Virus record (IMG/VR): IMGVR_UViG_3300003321_000433
Location: 1-32,260 of that record
From: a virus
Direction: 5' to 3' (one strand)
Length of the DNA stretch: 32,260 nucleotides
Each line of letters opens with the position of its first letter. The first letter of the stretch is position 1. The position numbers and the translations under genes are program-made. This document shows positions 343 through 26,363 of the stretch, piece after piece. The notes below the pieces were generated by a model. That model saw only the letters and a program-made list of their open reading frames with translations, did no database searches and was not told where the DNA came from.

Positions 343-3300
343 TTATTGAATAACATACATAAATGATACAGAAACTACTTTTGTACCTGTTGTATCTGCT
401 GTCAATATCCCAAGCTGCACTCTCGTAAACCCTACATCAGCTACTACGTCCAATAAAGTACCGTCTCCAATAGCAGGAGATCCATTAACATAAACAGATC
501 CACCCATCAATGTTGCTTGATTTGCATTTGAGAAATTATTTGCTGCAATAACCGGAACATCAATAGTAACTACTTGTGTTGTAGCAGTTGCCGTATAGCT
601 AAATTCTAAAGCAACTTCTGCTGTATATCCTACAGCAACAAGGGGAGCATTAACCATAGCCTTAATTACGCTAATACCTGATGTACCAGATACGTTACTA
701 ACAGTAGCAGAAAAAGAACCACTTTGATTCTCATCTATGTAAGCATATTGATGATAATTAACTCCATCAAATGTTCCAGGTCTTGCAGACGGAGTTGCAT
801 CAGATATAAATGCTGTCATTCCAGCCTCTGGAGAAGCGATTGCAGTCCATTCCGCATTTGTCATAACAGGAGCTGGAATCGTTGCTTGAGTGGTGCTTTT
901 AGCTTGCATGAAAAATGCACTAGATTCATTTTGCACAAGAAATGTGGAAATAACAGTTTCTAATTGATATTGAAATGCTCCATATGGTGTAACATTAGCA
1001 GTTGCAGTATATGAAGTTGGAGCGCTCATTGGTATCGGAAATGCTTGAGAATCGCCGCTAGCAAATTCTGTAATAGAAATATCTGCTCCTGCGACAGCGT
1101 CAGCATTGTTTCGATATGTTTGGGCTGGTGGTACAATAGCCGTCAATACATACTCTATTGCGCCGGATAATAAAATAGGATTTGATAATGCATTAGTTCT
1201 ATAAGCTCCAACTAATGAATCAGTTTTAGATACTGTTCCAATTGTTAATTGAACACCAGTGGATTTTTCATATATAGCTAATGTTCTTACTTGACCAACT
1301 CCAAGTGTAGAATCTTCTACTTGGAATGAAGTAATAATAATATTAGAAGAAGGAACAAAGGTATATCCAAAAATATTATAATTAGAATTTATGTTAATTC
1401 CTGTGCTAGATGTGGTTACTCCATTAGTTACAGAACCAGCTTGACTTGCATTGATTAATAATGGTCTTCCTGCAACTACTTCTATCACATTTCCATTATC
1501 ATAAGCATCTTGTAATGTATCGCTAGAAGTAGAATTTAAAGTAATATCAATTTCACCATTAGTAGATAAATCAATATTAATAGAGCTGTCAGAGCTAACT
1601 AAATACCCAGCAATAGCAGGAGATGAATCTACACCAATGATTAATTGACCTTGGTTTAATGTTGGAACATTTGGAAGATCTGTTAAATAAGCCAGTCCAG
1701 ACCAGTCTCCAGTATAAATATAAGCTCTTTTAGGACTAACATCTGTTGCAAATACGGCATCTCCATTCTGAGGAGCAGCAATAGCATCTCTTTGAACAGT
1801 TGTCATTGATGGCAATGGATGAGATGACCTAGTGGTAGAATTAACTTCAAAAATAACACTGTTATCAGTTGTTGAATCATAGATATTTACATCATCTTCT
1901 CCAGTAAATTCTTCATACTGAAATGATCCTATATATAATGCATCAGCTAATACCGTAAAAGATGTAGGAAATTGCAAGGTAACAGGAGAAGAAGACGATG
2001 GTCCACTTGCATATCCCGTGACTGTAATATTACTTACAACAGCATCTTCATTAGAAAAACTAGATTCATTGGCTGGAATAACTGTTGCAAATACATATTC
2101 TGTCCCAGAAGATAATAAAACAGGATTATTTAATGTTTTTGTTCTAAAAGTATTAGTTGAATCCAAAGGATCGGATTGAAGAATAGTAGCGCTTGCTAGT
2201 AATTCTTCTGTATTTTTATTATAAATTCCTGTATCTCTTGGATATGCAGTAGTAAATAAAGAATCATCATATTGTAATGATGTTACGATCATGTCTACTG
2301 ATGGGATAAATGTCCATCCAAATACTCTATAATTAGCTACCGTATTTGTACCTGTTGCTTCTGTCGTAACAACGTTTACTTCAGCAGCTGAGCTTCCATT
2401 TATAAAGCTAATTGGTCTATTATTAGATAATAAAACATTAGCATTATCACCATTATCATATGCAGCTTGTAGTGTAACTCCAGTTGAACTACTTACTGAA
2501 AAATCAATAGAATTTGTATTTTGAGATGGAGAAATAGTAACAGATCCATCATTACTTGTTAATTCACCATTTCCAGTCAAAATACCATTTAATGCAGTTA
2601 CAGTAGCTACTGCTAACCATGATCCGTCTAAAGTAGAATTATCGGATAATTTCACAAATAATCCGCCTCTTGAAACAAGAGTGGTAAATGATGATCCCGA
2701 ATTCAAATTAATATCAACAGATTCTAATCCAATAGAATTAAATTGAGGTCCAAAAGATAATGAAAAAGCTCCCAAACCTTGAGCAAGGGGAAGTCTAATT
2801 TCATTACCAGGGTTATTACATAATATTTCTATAAAATTAGGACAAGGATTGGTTAATGTGTAAATTCCACCTGAAAAATCACTATCATTTAACTGTAATA
2901 TTTGACCATTTCCAAATCCAAGATTTGATATTGAATCTTGAACATTAGAAACATCACTTAAGTTTCCAGCTATTGTTAAATAAGGCCCTCCGCCTCCAGT
3001 TGAAACATCAACAAAATTAAAACTTGCACTACCTGTTCCTATTTGAACTGGCAATGGTTCAACTAAAATATATAAAGCACCAGCTAGCGTATTTCCAGCT
3101 CCTACAGAGAAAAACTGTCCAACTTTTAATTGTTCTACCGACTGAAAATCAGGAGCTCTTTCTAAAAGCCATATACCAACACTGCTACCAGCTGCTTTAA
3201 CAACATATATACCATTTTCATTAACATTGGTTTGATTATTTAATAATAATCTATCACCAACTTGAGCTAAAACTCCATCAACTAATAAAGATCCAGTAGA

Positions 3301-3429
3301 AGACGCGGTAAGAGTTGAACCTACGCCATTATTAAGTTGACCATTAAAGTAATTACCCGAAAGATTAGATGTTGTAGCCAACCTAACAGATGTTATTTGT
3401 TGATAAATATTATATGACGTAGTTGCCAT
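343..3429 (-). CDS. Long modular tail fibre / receptor-binding protein
   Basis: About 1028 residues. An in-frame ATG lies two codons upstream (3433-3435), but its GGAG would be only 2 bases away; the ATG at 3427-3429 has GGAG 8 bases upstream and is preferred. Modules (numbered from the upstream Met): 1-145, a fibre module with YNIYQQ, VDGVLAQVGDRLLLNNQTN and NENGIYVV, shared with the gene at 3458-4381; about 363-512 and 685-825, two copies of a DUF4082-like beta domain (VFGWTFIPS / IFGYTFVPS, then L..PVLLSSGTEYVF / L..PILLSGAIEYVL). Each copy is preceded by a TLQxAYDNG linker and followed by a P.MT..(Q/E) fibre motif (MTTVQRDAIAAPQNGDAVF). The C-terminus, 905-1030, is a beta-rich tip with no recognised domain. 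The probable role is host-surface binding on the virion. No glycosidase motif was seen. Confidence 0.85.
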   Translation of the reverse strand: MATTSYNIYQQITSVRLATTSNLSGNYFNGQLNNGVGSTLTASSTGSLLVDGVLAQVGDRLLLNNQTNVNENGIYVVKAAGSSVGIWLLERAPDFQSVEQLKVGQFFSVGAGNTLAGALYILVEPLPVQIGTGSASFNFVDVSTGGGGPYLTIAGNLSDVSNVQDSISNLGFGNGQILQLNDSDFSGGIYTLTNPCPNFIEILCNNPGNEIRLPLAQGLGAFSLSFGPQFNSIGLESVDINLNSGSSFTTLVSRGGLFVKLSDNSTLDGSWLAVATVTALNGILTGNGELTSNDGSVTISPSQNTNSIDFSVSSSTGVTLQAAYDNGDNANVLLSNNRPISFINGSSAAEVNVVTTEATGTNTVANYRVFGWTFIPSVDMIVTSLQYDDSLFTTAYPRDTGIYNKNTEELLASATILQSDPLDSTNTFRTKTLNNPVLLSSGTEYVFATVIPANESSFSNEDAVVSNITVTGYASGPSSSSPVTLQFPTSFTVLADALYIGSFQYEEFTGEDDVNIYDSTTDNSVIFEVNSTTRSSHPLPSMTTVQRDAIAAPQNGDAVFATDVSPKRAYIYTGDWSGLAYLTDLPNVPTLNQGQLIIGVDSSPAIAGYLVSSDSSINIDLSTNGEIDITLNSTSSDTLQDAYDNGNVIEVVAGRPLLINASQAGSVTNGVTTSSTGININSNYNIFGYTFVPSSNIIITSFQVEDSTLGVGQVRTLAIYEKSTGVQLTIGTVSKTDSLVGAYRTNALSNPILLSGAIEYVLTAIVPPAQTYRNNADAVAGADISITEFASGDSQAFPIPMSAPTSYTATANVTPYGAFQYQLETVISTFLVQNESSAFFMQAKSTTQATIPAPVMTNAEWTAIASPEAGMTAFISDATPSARPGTFDGVNYHQYAYIDENQSGSFSATVSNVSGTSGISVIKAMVNAPLVAVGYTAEVALEFSYTATATTQVVTIDVPVIAANNFSNANQATLMGGSVYVNGSPAIGDGTLLDVVADVGFTRVQLGILTADTTGTKVVSVSFMYVIQ

Positions 3430-3457
3430 ATTCATCTCTCCATGATGATTTAAAACA

Positions 3458-4381
3458 TTAAACTGTTGGGATAGCTATCCAATTAAGAGTTGTATTTGCT
3501 CCAGGATCTGCGCTAAAAGTAACGGTTAATGTATCAGCACTTGGAACAGCTTTTATTGAAACGACATTTGTTGATGTTAACAAACAAGCAACAACAATAT
3601 CAGTAGCAACTAATCCTGTTGCAACAAATGCATTTGATGTTCCTCCGCCTCCATAAACAGCTGTTGTTCCACGTTTAATACCAATAGTTGTCAATGCATT
3701 AAGATTTGCTGCATCATCAACTAAAGACGCTCCAAAAGAAGATACAGTAACATTAGCTGAACTAATATCTAATGTTCTTGCAGCATCTCCAGTTGATAAA
3801 GTAAATATTCTGTCAGCTGTTAAATTACTTCCTGGTTTAATTATAAGATCATGTGATGCATTAGTATCTAATATATGCAATCCTTCATTTGGAACTGTTA
3901 ATGTGTCTGTAATTATCACGTCACTAAATGTTACATCCCCACCGCCTGGTGATTGAGTTGATTCAAATAATAAAGAATCAATACCAAGTTGAGCCGGTAG
4001 TGGTTCAACTAAAACCCACATTGATCCAGCGCTTGCTGAACCAGCATTAACACTTAAAAATTGTCCTAATTTCATTTGCTCAATGTTTTGGAAATCCGAT
4101 GATCTTACTAATACCCAATTAGCGGCTACTCCACCAGCATTGTTGACAATATAAATACCATTTTCATTAGCATTGGTTTGAGCTGATAATAGAACCCTAT
4201 CATTAGCTACTAAACTAACGCCATCAATCACTAATGCACCAACACCACTTGACACTAATGTTGCTCCAACACCATTATTTAATGGGCCATTTAAATAAGA
4301 TCCAGCCAAGTTTGAAACAGACACGACACGAGCTGATGTTAATTGTTGATAAATATTGTATTGAACTACTTGAGCTACCAT
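3458..4381 (-). CDS. Second tail fibre protein sharing the N-terminal module
   Basis: 307 residues with an AAGGAG site 7 bases before the ATG. Residues 1-145 match the N-terminal module of the neighbouring 1028-residue fibre (YNIYQQLTS, GPLNNGVGATL, VNDRVLL-like loop, NENGIYIV, LVEPLPAQLG), so both probably attach to the same virion socket or to each other. Residues 150-205 contain the fibre repeat HDLIIKPGSN ... ADRIFTLSTGDAARTLDIS. The C-terminal 100 residues (TTAVYGGGGTSNAFVATG onward) look like a compact beta-sandwich tip. The gene is one of several adhesins in the tail operon, which suggests a branched or exchangeable receptor-binding apparatus. Confidence 0.82.
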   Translation of the reverse strand: MVAQVVQYNIYQQLTSARVVSVSNLAGSYLNGPLNNGVGATLVSSGVGALVIDGVSLVANDRVLLSAQTNANENGIYIVNNAGGVAANWVLVRSSDFQNIEQMKLGQFLSVNAGSASAGSMWVLVEPLPAQLGIDSLLFESTQSPGGGDVTFSDVIITDTLTVPNEGLHILDTNASHDLIIKPGSNLTADRIFTLSTGDAARTLDISSANVTVSSFGASLVDDAANLNALTTIGIKRGTTAVYGGGGTSNAFVATGLVATDIVVACLLTSTNVVSIKAVPSADTLTVTFSADPGANTTLNWIAIPTV

Positions 4382-4413
4382 TTTAAACTCCTTTTTAAAA
4401 TTAATTACAAATA

Positions 4414-4716
4414 TTAACTACCCCAAACTAATCCCAATGCTGTTGTTCCTACAGAATTAATTCGTATTGAATATATATTATGCCATATACCAGCAGAAAC
4501 ATTGGTTAAAACTTGAGTTGTTCCATCCCATTTAACATAAGATACATTTCCTGCTGTTCCTACATATAACCAAGATGCAAATTCAACTTGTCCATTTGGA
4601 CCATAATCAACATCTAATGTCACATTTCCTGATCGAACTGGTCCAGATACCAGTCTAAAAGGTCCTGTATATAAATTAGGATCTAACGGTGGACATGAAA
4701 ATAATTGTTGTGCCAT
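4414..4716 (-). CDS. Small beta-rich spike/fibre-associated protein
   Basis: 100 residues; AGGAG lies 6 bases upstream of the ATG. The central pattern FASWLYVGTAGNVSYVKWDG, followed by LTNVSAGIWHNIYSIRINSVGTTALGLV, resembles the small spike-base or fibre-base proteins of the Rcc01079 type, in which a YVGTAG strand and a xNSxGTTAxxIV C-terminus recur. From the family it would be a small trimeric or decorating component of a tail spike. It lies between two fibre genes with short gaps, which supports a tail role. The family match is from memory of the motif. Confidence 0.72.
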   Translation of the reverse strand: MAQQLFSCPPLDPNLYTGPFRLVSGPVRSGNVTLDVDYGPNGQVEFASWLYVGTAGNVSYVKWDGTTQVLTNVSAGIWHNIYSIRINSVGTTALGLVWGS

Positions 4717-4725
4717 TACTAACTC

Positions 4726-6321
4726 CTATAACTTAATTAACATATTATAATACGTAGAAGGTGGTTGAATACTGAAAGGAGTACTTGATCCTGGTCCATT
4801 ATTAGAAGTGTAATTTTTATTACCTATAAATGCCCCATTAGATCCACCTACTCCAGAAGTAGTTACTCCAGAATGGTCAATATTTACAGTTGTTGTATGA
4901 CTATGAGGAGGTAAATTAGCAGCAGATAGTGTAACTGTTGGATTACCGAATGCATGACCAAGCGCATTAGCTCCAGTTCCACGACCAGCCAATAATCTAT
5001 CAACCGTTGGTGGAAGCTGTAATCTTTTATTAGCATTCCAATCTGATAGCGCACTACCTCCTTTAGCAACTGGAGCTCCAGCGCTCGTAAATAAAGGACA
5101 ATCAGCAGCGGAAGTTCCTTCCCATATGGTTTTATATAATAACCAAGTATCTGGTTTGTTTCTCGTAGTAGCATTTGATGCACTGCTTCCTATTGTTCCA
5201 TCATTTAATGGTATATAACCATTTTGAAATAACTGAGATGCATTGTTAGAAAAAGCATTCATGCTTATTTTGACATCACCTGTTCTAGGCAAATTCATTT
5301 CAACTTCATTTTCTTCATTTGATTCAAATACCACTGTAGGATAATCACTACCTTCCCATAGCATTGGCTTGAATATATCAATAGTTGTAGTCCCACCACC
5401 GGGAAATCTTATTTGTAAGTAAGTAGCATCATCATCTGAATTGCTTAAAGTTCTTCCTAATGTACTTGGAACATTCACTGTTACTGTATAAAAAGCAAAT
5501 GAACCTGTTAAGTTCTTTGGTTGAACTAAATTAACAGGAGCAACAATAGAAGGAGATCCACCGCTACCAAAATATTGATAGATAAAAAAGTTCAGTTGAT
5601 TCTGAGTTCCACCAGAATGCCTAGCATAAAACGTTAATGTAAACTGCTTACCAGATAAATTATTAACATATTTGGATATTGGTATCTGAATACCTTTATA
5701 ATTTTCTGCACCTGCTAGTGTGCAATCATATCTCATGTAATAATAAGTTAAGTAATCAGGAGCTATTGGATTAATGCCAATACCTGGATCATCAGAAAAT
5801 AAAACAAATGAAACAGTATCAGCTCCACCTACAGCACCATCTCTTATAAAAGTTATATCAGGAAAAGTTAATCCAGAATGTGCACCTGGAGCTAATAAAG
5901 TATTATTTAAAACAGGAGAAACAATAGTTGCTCCTATATTGTTAGTAAATGATGAATTAGTAAGAATATTATCTATCTTTTCTACTACAGTTGCTCCACC
6001 GCCTCCACCACCACCTGATATTGGATAAATATTTTCTGACCAAATCAAGTTACCATTAGCATCTTCAAAATAGACATAATATAAATCTTGAGGGTTTAAG
6101 TCATCTAATTGCCAATAAATAGCTCCTGGAGCCATACCATCAGCATCAAATATAAGAGGATTTGCCCATGGTGTACTTCCACCAGGATCTTGGTAAATAT
6201 TCTTGAATTGAGTAGGATTTAAACTACTTTTAGCAAAAAGCTTTCCACCAGCAGCAGGTTTTCCTTGTAAATCATTAAATATCCATATTGGTTGAGGTTG
6301 CAGTGTATACGAAATAGTCAT
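4726..6321 (-). CDS. Tail fibre with collar-type C-terminal tip
   Basis: 531 residues. Residues 1-100 are a phage fibre attachment domain (PIWIFNDLQGKPAAGGKLF, NPLIFDADGMAPGAIYW, YYVYFEDANGNLIWSENI). A run of seven glycines at 103-109 is a flexible linker. Residues about 120-325 look like a jelly-roll carbohydrate-binding domain (LTNSSFTNN ... FTLTFYARHSGG ... LQIRFPGGG ... IDIFKPMLWEG). The C-terminal 140 residues are tail-collar-like: LPPHSHTTTV at 470-479 with an HxH motif of the kind that binds metal in T4 long and short tail fibres, ending FSIQPPSTYYNMLIKL. Its ATG overlaps the stop of the upstream gene as TAATG, so translation is probably coupled. Likely receptor-binding protein. Confidence 0.88.
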   Translation of the reverse strand: MTISYTLQPQPIWIFNDLQGKPAAGGKLFAKSSLNPTQFKNIYQDPGGSTPWANPLIFDADGMAPGAIYWQLDDLNPQDLYYVYFEDANGNLIWSENIYPISGGGGGGGATVVEKIDNILTNSSFTNNIGATIVSPVLNNTLLAPGAHSGLTFPDITFIRDGAVGGADTVSFVLFSDDPGIGINPIAPDYLTYYYMRYDCTLAGAENYKGIQIPISKYVNNLSGKQFTLTFYARHSGGTQNQLNFFIYQYFGSGGSPSIVAPVNLVQPKNLTGSFAFYTVTVNVPSTLGRTLSNSDDDATYLQIRFPGGGTTTIDIFKPMLWEGSDYPTVVFESNEENEVEMNLPRTGDVKISMNAFSNNASQLFQNGYIPLNDGTIGSSASNATTRNKPDTWLLYKTIWEGTSAADCPLFTSAGAPVAKGGSALSDWNANKRLQLPPTVDRLLAGRGTGANALGHAFGNPTVTLSAANLPPHSHTTTVNIDHSGVTTSGVGGSNGAFIGNKNYTSNNGPGSSTPFSIQPPSTYYNMLIKL

Positions 6322-22087: not shown

Positions 22088-22276
22088 ATGCAAATAAACA
22101 TCATATCAAAAGACCAGATAAACATTTTAATTGAAAACGAAAACAAGTCATTAGACATGTACTACAAAAAGTTAAATGAGCAATCAACATTCAAGGGATT
22201 CACTGAGTTTTTAGATAAATTCATTGAAAAAGCGAATTACAAAAAATACCTTTTAGAAACATTGGAGAATAAATAA
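22088..22276 (+). CDS. 62-residue early protein, unknown
   Basis: AGAGGA lies 7 bases before the ATG. The sequence is helical and charged (MQINIISKDQINILIENENK ... FTEFLDKFIEKANYKKYLLE). It ends in LENK, and its last bases TTGGAGAATAAATAATG hold the ribosome site and overlapping start of the next gene. The same 17 bases recur at the end of the gene at 22438-22590. Confidence 0.6.
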   Translation: MQINIISKDQINILIENENKSLDMYYKKLNEQSTFKGFTEFLDKFIEKANYKKYLLETLENK

Positions 22277-22434
22277 TGATTTACTCAATAGAAAATATAA
22301 ACAAATTATTAAATCAAATTCCTGATTTTATAAAAAAATCATTTGAAAATGAGAATAAAACTTTAAGGCTATATGATTTATTAAGTTGGTATTATTCACA
22401 ATCAATGAAAACAAGCAATTTATTTGGAGTATGA
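22276..22434 (+). CDS. 52-residue early protein, unknown
   Basis: The start overlaps the previous stop (TAATG). The product MIYSIENINKLLNQIPDFIK, KSFENENKTLRLYDLLSWYY, SQSMKTSNLFGV is helical with an aromatic stretch. It has no recognised domain. Its 3' end supplies GGAG for the next gene. Confidence 0.55.
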   Translation: MIYSIENINKLLNQIPDFIKKSFENENKTLRLYDLLSWYYSQSMKTSNLFGV

Positions 22435-22437
22435 ATA

Positions 22438-22590
22438 ATGGAAATATCAAAAGAACAACTTGTATCATTATGCGAGCAATCTTTTAATGAAGGACAAGAG
22501 GAAGGTTTTGATTTAGCAATAGAAATGATTTCAAATTCATTAAATCAATTTAAAGGATTTCTTAAAGATAAAAAATTGGAGAATAAATAA
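22438..22590 (+). CDS. 50-residue early protein, unknown
   Basis: GGAG lies about 8 bases before the ATG inside the previous stop region. The product MEISKEQLVSLCEQSFNEGQ, EEGFDLAIEMISNSLNQFKG, FLKDKKLENK is an acidic helical protein. Like the gene at 22088-22276 it ends in LENK, encoded by an identical 17-base junction that carries the next ribosome site. Confidence 0.55.
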   Translation: MEISKEQLVSLCEQSFNEGQEEGFDLAIEMISNSLNQFKGFLKDKKLENK

Positions 22591-22775
22591 TGTCTTTTGA
22601 TAATGGATTACACAACACAATAATTGATTTATTTTTTCATAGAATAACTAAGCTAGAAGAACATAAAATTATGCAAATTGATGAAAATAGAAAATCAAGT
22701 AAAAAGATGGATGAATTAGAAAAAAAGATTAACGCAATTATGCAAGAAATAGGATTTATATGGAGAACTAATTAA
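22590..22775 (+). CDS. 61-residue coiled-coil protein, unknown
   Basis: The ATG overlaps the previous stop (TAATG) and uses TTGGAG. The sequence is one long helix after residue 15 (ITKLEEHKIMQIDENRKSSK, KMDELEKKINAIMQEIGFIW) with coiled-coil-like spacing. The stop overlaps the next start (TAATG). It immediately precedes the Tad2-like pair and may be co-regulated with it. No family is recognised. Confidence 0.6.
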   Translation: MSFDNGLHNTIIDLFFHRITKLEEHKIMQIDENRKSSKKMDELEKKINAIMQEIGFIWRTN

Positions 22776-23119
22776 TGAAATTCGAAGAAGCTTTGAAAGA
22801 ATTAAGAAATGGAAAAAAAATATCATGTATTAGCTTGCCATCATTGGAGTTTTCATTATCACCACAGTATGAATTATCCATAAAACTACCTAACAATTTA
22901 TCTAAATTTTCAATAATAGATTTTATAATAAAAGGTGAATGGTATGTTTTAGAAGAACCAGGAAAATCCTTCCCAGAAGTATTTGAATCGTTTAAACAAG
23001 GAAAGAAAATAAAGAGAAAATGTTTGTCAATCGATTCGTATCTCACAAAAAATGATTGTTATTACAATCTTAATGCAAAAGATTTACTCGCAACAGACTG
23101 GATTATAGTGGAGGAATAG
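22775..23119 (+). CDS. Tandem DUF2829/Tad2-like protein (copy 1)
   Basis: 114 residues that read as two related domains. Residues 1-60 begin MKFEEALKELRNGKKISC and end GEWYVLEE; residues 63-114 begin KSFPEVFESFKQGKKIKRK and end AKDLLATDWIIVEE. The shape FxEAlexlKxGKkixRxxW ... DLLAxDWxvve is the DUF2829 pattern, the family of Tad2, a phage protein that sequesters the gcADPR messenger of Thoeris defence. Known Tad2 proteins have one domain and assemble as tetramers. Here the first domain is diverged (no Trp after the GKK motif). The DNA start ATGAAATTCGAAGAAGC is identical to that of the next gene, so the pair arose by duplication. Domain assignment is good for the second half, weaker for the first. 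Confidence 0.72.
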   Translation: MKFEEALKELRNGKKISCISLPSLEFSLSPQYELSIKLPNNLSKFSIIDFIIKGEWYVLEEPGKSFPEVFESFKQGKKIKRKCLSIDSYLTKNDCYYNLNAKDLLATDWIIVEE

Positions 23120-23120
23120 A

Positions 23121-23465
23121 ATGAAATTCGAAGAAGCAATTTATTATTTTAAACAAGGTGCCACAATAAAAAGACATAAATGGCCATCTTATGATGTTTT
23201 TTATATAAATGAAAAAGAAGTAAATAAATATGCATTATCAAAAGAAGATTATCTTGCTGATGATTGGATAATAGTTGATAGAATAGAACAACCAGGTAAA
23301 TCCTTCTCAGAAGTATTTGAAGATTTTGAAAAAGGTAAAAAAATAAGACGTAAAGTATGGCCAAAGAATGTTGGTATAAGCATGAAAATGATGATTACAA
23401 AAGATGATTATTTGATGGCTTATATGAAAGATTTATTAGAAAAAGACTGGGAGGTAATAGAATGA
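23121..23465 (+). CDS. Tandem DUF2829/Tad2-like protein (copy 2)
   Basis: 114 residues in two clear domains. Residues 1-53 begin MKFEEAIYYFKQGATIKRHK then WP, and end EDYLADDWIIVD. Residues 60-114 begin KSFSEVFEDFEKGKKIRRKV then WP, and end MKDLLEKDWEVIE. Both carry the DUF2829/Tad2 signature, including the basic-Trp motif after the first helix and the terminal (L)xxDWxV strand. By family knowledge these proteins bind cyclic-nucleotide defence signals (Thoeris, and for some homologues CBASS). Binding residues cannot be confirmed by eye. The start lies one base after the previous stop; its GAGGAATAG ribosome site is within the previous last codons. The next gene starts within its stop (ATGA). 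Confidence 0.8.
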   Translation: MKFEEAIYYFKQGATIKRHKWPSYDVFYINEKEVNKYALSKEDYLADDWIIVDRIEQPGKSFSEVFEDFEKGKKIRRKVWPKNVGISMKMMITKDDYLMAYMKDLLEKDWEVIE

Positions 23466-23620
23466 AAGTATGGATAGCCTATATAGATGGATGGTCATGC
23501 GATGGGGAAGGAATTAAATCATTAGAAATATATTTATCAAAAGAAATTGCTATAAATACAATAAATAACTATGAAGATTATGATAAATATATAATACAAG
23601 AACACGAGGTAATAGAATAA
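23462..23620 (+). CDS. DUF7336-like small protein
   Basis: 52 residues, MKVWIAYIDGWSCDGEGIKS then LEIYLSKEIAINTINNYEDY and DKYIIQEHEVIE. The layout (kVwi.y......G.gI....iYlskE.A.......Y....I.E.ev) resembles short phage proteins of the DUF7336 type, whose function is not known. The gene overlaps the Tad2-like stop by 4 bases and the next start by 1 base. Its final bases GAGGTAATAGAAT repeat those of the preceding gene. Confidence 0.62.
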   Translation: MKVWIAYIDGWSCDGEGIKSLEIYLSKEIAINTINNYEDYDKYIIQEHEVIE

Positions 23621-24072
23621 TGGAACTTTTACATTGCGCATTTTGTGGATCAAATAGATTAGAAAACTATCAATGTATAGGACATGCAATAGTATTTTGT
23701 ACTGAGTGTGAATATAGAGCACCTACAAAAATATGGAACACTCGCCATTCACCATCAGCTAATTGGGATACTTTTGCAACTAATGAATTAATAAAATGTC
23801 AGAAAGCATATAATGAATTGCTAGAAAAACATAATTCGCCATGGGTATCAATTAAAGATAGATTACCAAAAATAAAAGAAAATGTTTTAGTTATTGATGG
23901 AGATCAATTAACAGTTGGATATCTTGATAGCGTAGTAGAAGAAAAAACACGTTATTCAGGACCAATTGGTGAAACTTCTTGGTATTTATCTTACGAATCA
24001 TGGTCAACTAGTGAGATTAGTCTATGTAATGTAACCCACTGGATGCTTCTCCCATCCCCACCAAAGGAATAA
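23620..24072 (+). CDS. Lar-like zinc ribbon fused to DUF551
   Basis: 150 residues. Residues 5-42 hold two CxxC pairs (Cys6/Cys9, Cys27/Cys30) and the ending IWNTR, the layout of Lar-type proteins (LxxCPFCG ... C..C......A...WN.R), a family named for relief of host type I restriction. Residues 75-148 match DUF551: PWVSIKDRLPKIKENVLVID, then VTHWMLLPSPP; its function is unknown. Fusions of small phage zinc ribbons with DUF551 occur in phage early regions. Position beside the Tad2-like genes is consistent with a counter-defence group. Whether it acts on restriction is unproved. Confidence 0.78.
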   Translation: MELLHCAFCGSNRLENYQCIGHAIVFCTECEYRAPTKIWNTRHSPSANWDTFATNELIKCQKAYNELLEKHNSPWVSIKDRLPKIKENVLVIDGDQLTVGYLDSVVEEKTRYSGPIGETSWYLSYESWSTSEISLCNVTHWMLLPSPPKE

Positions 24073-24075
24073 CAC

Positions 24076-24258
24076 ATGATTGATATAATATATGAGTTTT
24101 TAACAGGAAATTATATACAAAAAAGTAATTTTGAATTAACAAAATTTCAATATGATTTAACTAGAAATTATGCAGAACGTCATAATTCAACCATAGATAA
24201 TGTTATAAGTATACAAAGGAAACCAAATAATGAACGCACTATTCTACATATCAGATAA
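24076..24258 (+). CDS. 60-residue early protein, unknown
   Basis: AAAGGA lies 8 bases before the ATG. The product (MIDIIYEFLTGNYIQKSNFE, LTKFQYDLTRNYAERHNSTI, DNVISIQRKPNNERTILHIR) has no motif I recognise. The last 29 bases overlap the next gene, whose own ribosome site AAAGGA is within this frame. Possibly real over its full length. Confidence 0.5.
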   Translation: MIDIIYEFLTGNYIQKSNFELTKFQYDLTRNYAERHNSTIDNVISIQRKPNNERTILHIR

Positions 24259-24406
24259 CGATAAAAACCGTCACTACGAAATTAGTTTTCAGAAAGAAGG
24301 ACATAAAAATTACATATGGATAAGAAATGCTGGAGCAGAAGCAATGAGAATGGAAGAGCAACAATTCTTTGACTGCATAGACAAATATTTTAAGGAGAAT
24401 TTTTAA
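24230..24406 (+). CDS. 58-residue early protein, unknown
   Basis: AAAGGA is 9 bases before the ATG. The product (MNALFYISDNDKNRHYEISF, QKEGHKNYIWIRNAGAEAMR, MEEQQFFDCIDKYFKENF) looks like a small alpha/beta domain with two strands and a C-terminal helix. Its stop overlaps the start of the next gene (TAATG), and AAGGAG in its end serves that gene. Unknown family. Confidence 0.6.
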   Translation: MNALFYISDNDKNRHYEISFQKEGHKNYIWIRNAGAEAMRMEEQQFFDCIDKYFKENF

Positions 24407-24801
24407 TGAACCTAGAGAACCAATTTGTAAATTTAGAACTAAGCAAAAAACTAAAAGAATTAGGAGTTAAACAAGAAAGTTTGTTTTACTGGTATTATTG
24501 TGATGAAAATAAACCATTCATAGAATATGAAGAACTTTTATATGAAAATATATATAGAACAGGACCAGATCCTATAAAAATATGCTCAGCATTCACTGCA
24601 TCCGAACTATTAGAAATGTTACCTTTTGGTGAATTTGGATATAATTTTTTATTAATACAAAAAGATGATGAATATGACATTTCACATGCAATTGAAGATG
24701 CTTATATAGAAAATAATATACATTTTTTAGATAAAAATTTACAAAATGCACTAGCAAAAATGATTATTCACTTAATAGAAAAACAACTTATAGAGATTTA
24801 A
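24406..24801 (+). CDS. Conserved-type phage/plasmid protein (NLENQ..SKKLKELG family)
   Basis: 131 residues. The start MNLENQFVNLELSKKLKELG, VKQESLFYWYYCD, and the later SAFTASELLEMLPFGEF are motifs I have seen in a widespread group of small proteins in phages and mobile elements, often described only as hypothetical. The C-terminal half has further helices (NALAKMIIHLIEKQLIEI). AAGGAG is 7 bases before the ATG. No biochemical role is known to me. Confidence 0.72.
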   Translation: MNLENQFVNLELSKKLKELGVKQESLFYWYYCDENKPFIEYEELLYENIYRTGPDPIKICSAFTASELLEMLPFGEFGYNFLLIQKDDEYDISHAIEDAYIENNIHFLDKNLQNALAKMIIHLIEKQLIEI

Positions 24802-24802
24802 C

Positions 24803-25021
24803 ATGATAGAAACAAAAAAATGCATAGACGGATTATCTTACAAAGCAACATGCACTATTACAGGTAAATCATCTTTCTCCACATCAGAGAAAAAAGCTAT
24901 TGAATATTTGGAAGAAAGGTTAAAACAAGAAAAGTTACTTAAAGAAAAATACGGAGATAATTGGATAAAAGAGTTTTATGAAAGAGCAAATAAAAGATAC
25001 TTAGAATTAGGAATTTACTAA
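24803..25021 (+). CDS. 72-residue early protein, unknown
   Basis: The N-terminal half (CIDGLSYKATCTITGKSSFS) suggests three short strands with two Cys. The C-terminal half is a charged helix (KKAIEYLEERLKQEKLLKEK, YGDNWIKEFYERANKRYLEL). The ATG follows the upstream stop closely. The stop overlaps the next possible start as TAATG. Confidence 0.6.
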   Translation: MIETKKCIDGLSYKATCTITGKSSFSTSEKKAIEYLEERLKQEKLLKEKYGDNWIKEFYERANKRYLELGIY

Positions 25022-26030: not shown

Positions 26031-26363
26031 TTATAGGCTCCAATCTTTTATTTTATTATCGGATGTTTTTTCTTCTACTATTTCCCAATTGTCATCTAAA
26101 GTTGATTTAAATGAGATCATTAAGTACATACCTGAGTCACCACTTACATTTTCATCTATTAATCGAATTGGATCAGAATGAAACTTTTTATTTATAATTG
26201 AAGCACCTCTTTTCATGGCGCTTAAAGCTTCTTCAAAACTCAAACCTGTTTTAGGTTCTTCTCCACATCTAAAAATAAAGCTTTCCAAATGATCAATCCT
26301 CCTAATTTGAGTTAACATAAAATCATAAATTTGCTTTGCTTTCTCTTCGGCATTGCTTTTCAT
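26031..26363 (-). CDS. DUF2829/Tad2-like protein with N-terminal helix (copy 3)
   Basis: 110 residues. Residues 41-98 read LSFEEALSAMKRGASIINKK, then a loop, then YLMISFKSTLDDNWEIVEE: the DUF2829/Tad2 start and end motifs with an aberrant middle (the usual RxxW after the GxxI is KKF). Residues 1-32 form an extra charged helix absent from normal members. AAGGA lies 6 bases before the ATG. It is expressed with the endolysin and holin from the leftward operon, not with the tandem copies at 22775-23465. Possibly another nucleotide-signal sponge or a diverged paralogue. Confidence 0.62.
   Translation of the reverse strand: MKSNAEEKAKQIYDFMLTQIRRIDHLESFIFRCGEEPKTGLSFEEALSAMKRGASIINKKFHSDPIRLIDENVSGDSGMYLMISFKSTLDDNWEIVEEKTSDNKIKDWSL

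Follow-up and report, generated by a model that had tools for sequence, protein, structure and literature searches.

Two neighbouring, duplicated genes of an uncultured bacterial virus each code for two shortened copies of a Tad2-like domain, which raises the question of whether the pair works as one of the known Tad2 sponges or has another role built on the same fold. The window (the whole stretch of DNA that was analysed, a virus record of 32,260 bases) encodes P22-like portal and coat proteins, a terminase, a lysozyme and replication genes. Its portal protein is about 24-27% identical to those of the best-matching named phages and 62-80% identical to those of uncultured contigs, and a similar coat protein is encoded by 226 stretches in viral contigs. 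A terminase search of genome contigs found no cellular host; the coat search returned two bins assembled from metagenomes, but these contain stray phage contigs and do not show a host. An accessory island between the lysis and terminase genes is common to the close relatives of this phage.

The initial annotation had described two adjacent genes for 114-residue proteins, each with two DUF2829/Tad2-like domains, and both open reading frames were recovered exactly (Table 1). The stop codon of the small upstream ORF overlaps the start of gene 1 by 1 base, the two genes are separated by 1 base, and gene 2, with a GGAGG site just 5' of it, overlaps the next ORF by 4 bases. The pair is therefore part of a series of coupled small genes (about 22088-25021) and, with this translational coupling, of an accessory operon; the phage itself is an uncultured P22-like podovirus. 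A promoter scan yielded fewer sites than shuffled sequences and thus no information. The same coupled operon carries a gene with a DUF551 domain (Pfam E 7.5e-11) and an N-terminus with a weak match to Lar, a restriction-alleviation protein (PHROG 599, Lar-like, E 1.8e-4; the Pfam Lar value of 0.11 is below the Pfam cut-off). Several related phages have relatives of this DUF551 gene in their own accessory islands. In one relative (L006:1838-2194), a helical segment resembling the product of the upstream ORF is fused ahead of a Tad2-like domain.

Table 1. Positions of the gene pair, its domains and repeats, and associated genes in the window.
Feature	Position	Strand	Length	Description
Upstream ORF	22590..22775	+	61 aa	coiled-coil-like; directly 5' of gene 1
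Gene 1 (P0001)	22775..23119	+	114 aa	ORF, PF11195, AlphaFold2 model
Gene 1, domain 1	about 22775-22954	+		short Tad2-like, strongly diverged
Gene 1, domain 2	about 22955-23116	+		short Tad2-like
Direct repeat, gene 1 copy	22950..23012	+		linker and start of domain 2; 84% identical to 23284-23346
Gene 2 (P0002)	23121..23465	+	114 aa	ORF, PF11195, AlphaFold2 model
Gene 2, domain 1	about 23121-23279	+		short Tad2-like
Gene 2, domain 2	about 23298-23462	+		short Tad2-like
Direct repeat, gene 2 copy	23284..23346	+	63 nt	linker and start of domain 2; 84% identical to 22950-23012
Lar-like/DUF551 gene	23620..24072	+		Lar-like zinc-ribbon N-terminus and DUF551; same operon, coupled
Third Tad2-like gene (P0003)	26031..26363	-	110 aa	domain about 26073-26243

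To place the proteins in a family we compared them with PF11195, now named Tad2-like in Pfam, for which the curated cut-off is 25 bits. Both whole proteins scored above it (gene 1, E 3.2e-8, 34.4 bits; gene 2, E 2e-13, 51.1 bits), which bears out the earlier assignment to DUF2829/Tad2 by a profile search, the kind of check proposed for it. When the halves were scanned singly, three again exceeded the cut-off (gene 2 domain 1, 9.2e-9; gene 2 domain 2, 1.1e-5; gene 1 domain 2, 2.2e-5), and the first domain of gene 1 fell below it (E 0.085, 13.8 bits). This domain has also lost motif residues, in agreement with its earlier description as strongly diverged. Its assignment as a Tad2-like domain, with its own Pfam score below the cut-off, would rest on alignments and on a confident model. 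In shuffling tests the halves matched each other with Z-scores of 5-22 and with 0-1 of 200 shuffles equally good; the one exception was gene 1 domain 1 against gene 2 domain 2 (Z 2.7, 5 of 200 shuffles as good). That same domain reached Z 10.8 against a relative (L018) and 5.4 against gene 2 domain 1. A profile of the window genes and their short relatives found ModTad2, SPO1 Tad2, AcrIIA7 and SptTad2 among solved chains at 2.8e-9 to 1.5e-7. The local profile was built iteratively with the window domains included, so that its E-values for these domains are not independent evidence. NCBIfam gave no significant model for the pair and PADLOC matched neither gene. Exonuclease VII small subunit and the remaining Pfam rows were all under the cut-off and were set aside.

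The predicted structures agree with the sequence profile. AlphaFold2 models of gene 1 (pLDDT 87.3, pTM 0.54) and gene 2 (pLDDT 81.9, pTM 0.50) had credible PDB matches only to Tad2/AcrIIA7, half by half, in support of a Tad2-like fold. In gene 2, residues 1-53 and 57-114 each matched with Z about 7; in gene 1, residues 61-114 matched with Z 7-8 and residues 1-60 more weakly (Z 5.9, rmsd 3.3). Z-scores of this size (5.9-8.0 per half over both models) can come from common arrangements, but the next unrelated rows, at 3.2 and 4.1, were well below the Tad2 rows. The diverged first domain of gene 1 was modelled as helix-strand-strand-strand-helix-strand, the same order of elements as in the other domains. 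The models thus predict two Tad2-like alpha/beta units per chain; the low pTM values limit this prediction to the units themselves and exclude their packing against each other. The best matches in BFVD were uncharacterised phage proteins and several named Tad2-like, with more than one in the Lactobacillus phages Semele and Iacchus.

The solved members of the family resemble the window proteins in fold and differ from them in architecture. SPO1 Tad2 (Bacillus phage, gp34.65; PDB 8SME, 8SMF, 8SMG; profile E 9e-9) and Myroides ModTad2 (PDB 9EIB, with His-ADPR; profile E 2.8e-9), both with fold Z about 7, are single domains of 84-85 residues that form homotetramers, whereas in the window two chains carry four domains. 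AcrIIA7/HgmTad2 and SptTad2 (PDB 8KBI-8KBM, 8WJD, 9KZR; 4e-8 to 1.5e-7, fold Z 6-7.5) have 101-104 residues without duplication and, according to the entry titles, bind cADPR isomers and cGG. For AcrIIA7, an anti-Cas9 protein, the relation in sequence has a profile E of 4.4e-8. Acb4 sponges were set aside as relatives, as Acb4 lacks structural homology to Tad2 (PMC11722364).

The main difference lies in the middle of the domain. The window domains comprise about 52-61 residues, and their strand-1 tryptophan position and the tryptophan of the closing DW motif (EW in the first domain of gene 1) lie 28 and 30 residues apart in gene 2 and 35 and 25 in gene 1, compared with 60 in SPO1 Tad2 and ModTad2. 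The long middle segment of these two proteins is lacking, and the GWNGK motif after strand 1 that is common to the solved Tad2s is absent from all four domains. Helix alpha3, strand beta4 and the beta1-beta2 and beta3-beta4 loops contribute to the gcADPR pockets, and those for cyclic dinucleotides involve an insertion between beta2 and beta5 (review, PMC12043709). Set against this description by sequence and length, all four domains lack the approximately 30-residue segment that supplies much of both pockets. The initial annotation had named a fold unlike Tad2 without the interdomain pocket as grounds for its rejection; this objection applies in part, as the fold is predicted and the segment forming much of the known pockets is absent. 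The two proteins therefore belong to the Tad2-like family and not to the characterised Tad2 sponges, since the parts that define the latter are missing. In a profile of the collected domains, scaffold positions are kept (F/I3, A6, G13, I/V16, R18, W21, D59, D64, W65), and the middle, short and variable in length and sequence, is nearly free. A tryptophan is present in the strand-1 region of 86 of the 101 collected domains; gene 2 keeps it in both halves and gene 1 has leucine in both.

The initial annotation is thus supported in part: for the family, the two domains per gene, the divergence of the first domain of gene 1 and the fold, whereas the counter-defence locus and the heteromeric sponge that it proposed are putative. 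Short Tad2-like genes probably form a diversified, host-directed binder family, for which nucleotide sequestration is possible. That the window pair itself is a host-directed binder with a counter-defence role is a reading to which we give slightly less than an even chance. It is favoured because the scaffold is kept and the middle is short and variable, as expected if each copy binds differently, and the recurrence and turnover of Tad2-like genes in related phages and the Lar-like/DUF551 gene in the same operon also speak for it; against it count the loss of much of the known pocket, the weakness of the Lar-like match and the features, discussed below, that fit a regulatory role equally. The two genes derive most simply by duplication from one ancestral gene that already had two short-form Tad2-like domains. 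The products would be made together from the coupled genes and could, for that reason, join as homo- or hetero-oligomers. As host-directed binders they may assist the phage in overcoming bacterial defence. The likelier binding subunit would be gene 2, which keeps both tryptophans, and gene 1 would more likely be a structural or modified partner. A nucleotide signal may be the ligand, but its binding mode would have to differ from that in SPO1, Myroides or Hgm Tad2, much of whose pockets comes from the segment that is absent here. Sponge-like working via another pocket or a hetero-oligomer is possible.

How widespread is this arrangement? A tblastn search of cultured (named) phages with gene 2 gave weak matches only (best E 0.1) and no relative of the pair; a search of viral contigs with the single protein returned one relative, at 32% identity. 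Within the phage clade, Tad2-like genes recur in 18 of 25 long contigs, but these are different genes, indicating recurrence with turnover. Eight of these clade records have two-domain proteins, with lengths from 115 to 143 aa. Like the window genes, the two-domain proteins of phages with the same coat protein (L157-L163, L166, L171) carry two short Tad2-like domains per chain; unlike them, they are encoded by one gene rather than a pair, have somewhat longer domains and, where checked, lie at another genome position. The domain tree does not settle their orthology with the window pair. A single-domain, middle-length Tad2-like type also occurs in the clade (L178, L164, L170, L179, L180, L181), with a motif like LPGMxxxWKI..PNPNAGN. 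Two relatives (L005, L011) have one single-domain short Tad2-like gene in the accessory island, in L011 beside the same DUF551 gene.

The window itself contains a third Tad2-like gene, P0003, in which a mostly helical-looking N-terminal segment precedes the domain. It has no Pfam match; it matched gene 2 at E 0.003, and the gene 2 domains and L018 with Z 7.0-9.0 (0 of 200 shuffles as good). Its position, between DUF1064 and lysozyme, is that of the Tad2-like genes in L006 and L011.

Larger clusters were also found. One contig (L001) has a run of five short-form genes, and L070 and L071 (contigs of 166 and 92 kb; the L070 run is at 2506-5401) share an eight-gene Tad2-like run, the largest cluster seen, in which one gene of 232 aa has at least two domains. 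At least two domains within 1.5 kb on either side were present at 13 of 24 distinct short-form loci versus 8 of 80 loci found with a long-form query; as the queries differed and the 80 are partly redundant, this describes a tendency and not a rate. Tandem or clustered short Tad2-like genes are thus widespread and the window arrangement is not singular. We found no account of them in the open literature, which is weak evidence because most subscription papers lay outside its scope. The short-form domains might even constitute a separate, fast-diversifying family of phage binders, arranged in tandem within a chain, as gene pairs or in arrays of as many as about eight neighbouring genes, and forming hetero-oligomers that capture signals or proteins not bound by known Tad2. 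The window pair would then be a minimal heteromer in which one subunit is modified; we regard this broader proposal as tentative and somewhat unlikely.

Other relatives point in a different direction. In L054, L064 and L067, runs of three to five short-form genes include some with an N-terminal helix-turn-helix (L064:3189-3596, L054:1428-1838, L067:789-1199; CENP-B_N 7e-7 in L064), which hints at a regulatory use of the short domain. PHROG 643 ('transcriptional regulator') matches both window genes (gene 1, 1.4e-3; gene 2, 2.4e-5). Together with the missing pocket segment, these observations would fit short Tad2-like domains that have lost the ligand pocket and serve as generic interaction or regulatory modules, such as the part of a phage regulator that binds a protein or mediates dimerisation. 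However, the window proteins lack a DNA-binding domain, PHROG names are annotations and not tests, and the solved relatives are all nucleotide binders or anti-CRISPR proteins by their PDB titles. We judge this explanation somewhat unlikely, though worth serious consideration.

The history of the pair bears on whether both genes still function. A 48-nt DNA segment occurs four times, once per domain, and the longer direct repeat, which spans the linker and the beginning of domain 2 (Table 1), is a trace of the duplication of a two-domain gene. The domain tree has too few columns for more than one usable relation, namely that the two second domains are sisters (94/86). Amino-acid-identical codons number 16 of 56 in domain 1 and 28 of 52 in domain 2, and the sequences are most simply explained by duplication of a two-domain gene, followed by divergence that was greatest in domain 1. 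Between the genes, pN was 0.52 and pS 0.41 in domain 1, with no sign of constraint, and 0.16 and 0.42 across the linker and the first part of domain 2, where constraint is suggested; the numbers behind these values are low and carry a base-composition bias. A dN/dS estimate was set aside because of too few sites and skewed base composition. The lost motif residues and the absence of constraint in domain 1 are what would be expected if gene 1, or both genes, were decaying duplicates with no present function. Yet neither reading frame is broken and each has a plausible ribosome site, the second stretch suggests constraint within the same limits, and the gene 1 model is confident, which makes decay improbable. 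A standard Tad2 sponge, in which the four domains in two chains would give one pseudo-tetramer whose usual pockets hold gcADPR, His-ADPR or cyclic dinucleotides, would agree with the family, the fold and the two gene 2 tryptophans, but it is quite improbable given that the segment for loop beta3-beta4, strand beta4 and the beta2-beta5 insertion (PMC12043709) is largely absent, as are GWNGK and, in gene 1, the tryptophan.

The short form has consequences for annotation. PF11195 is named after Tad2, so that many short phage proteins will receive an anti-Thoeris label by name alone, and part of this family, tandem and clustered, is without the greater part of the segment in which the known ligands are held. 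If the short forms still bind immune signals, the minimum size of a sponge would be far below what has been assumed, and its range could be extended by hetero-oligomers; otherwise many annotations would have to be revised.

Combinations of unlike Tad2-like domains exist among long forms as well. The proteins of Dorea phage DO134P1 (WAX12350.1) and of related prophages (L012-L019) resemble those of the window in having two Tad2-like domains per chain, the first divergent, but the DO134P1 protein has 164 aa, is encoded by a single gene and has a second domain of the full-length GWNGK type. Staphylococcus phage SpaA1 (P60/P61) and Lactobacillus phage Lenus (gp036/gp035) each have two adjacent Tad2-like genes that differ in type and are coupled or almost so, as in the window, but with one long domain per gene (GGYW type beside GWNGK type) instead of tandem short ones. 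Long domains of the GGYW and GWNG types thus recur side by side, as neighbours in SpaA1 (L191) and Lenus (L193) and fused in DO134P1 (L192), which suggests heteromeric Tad2 in Firmicutes phages.
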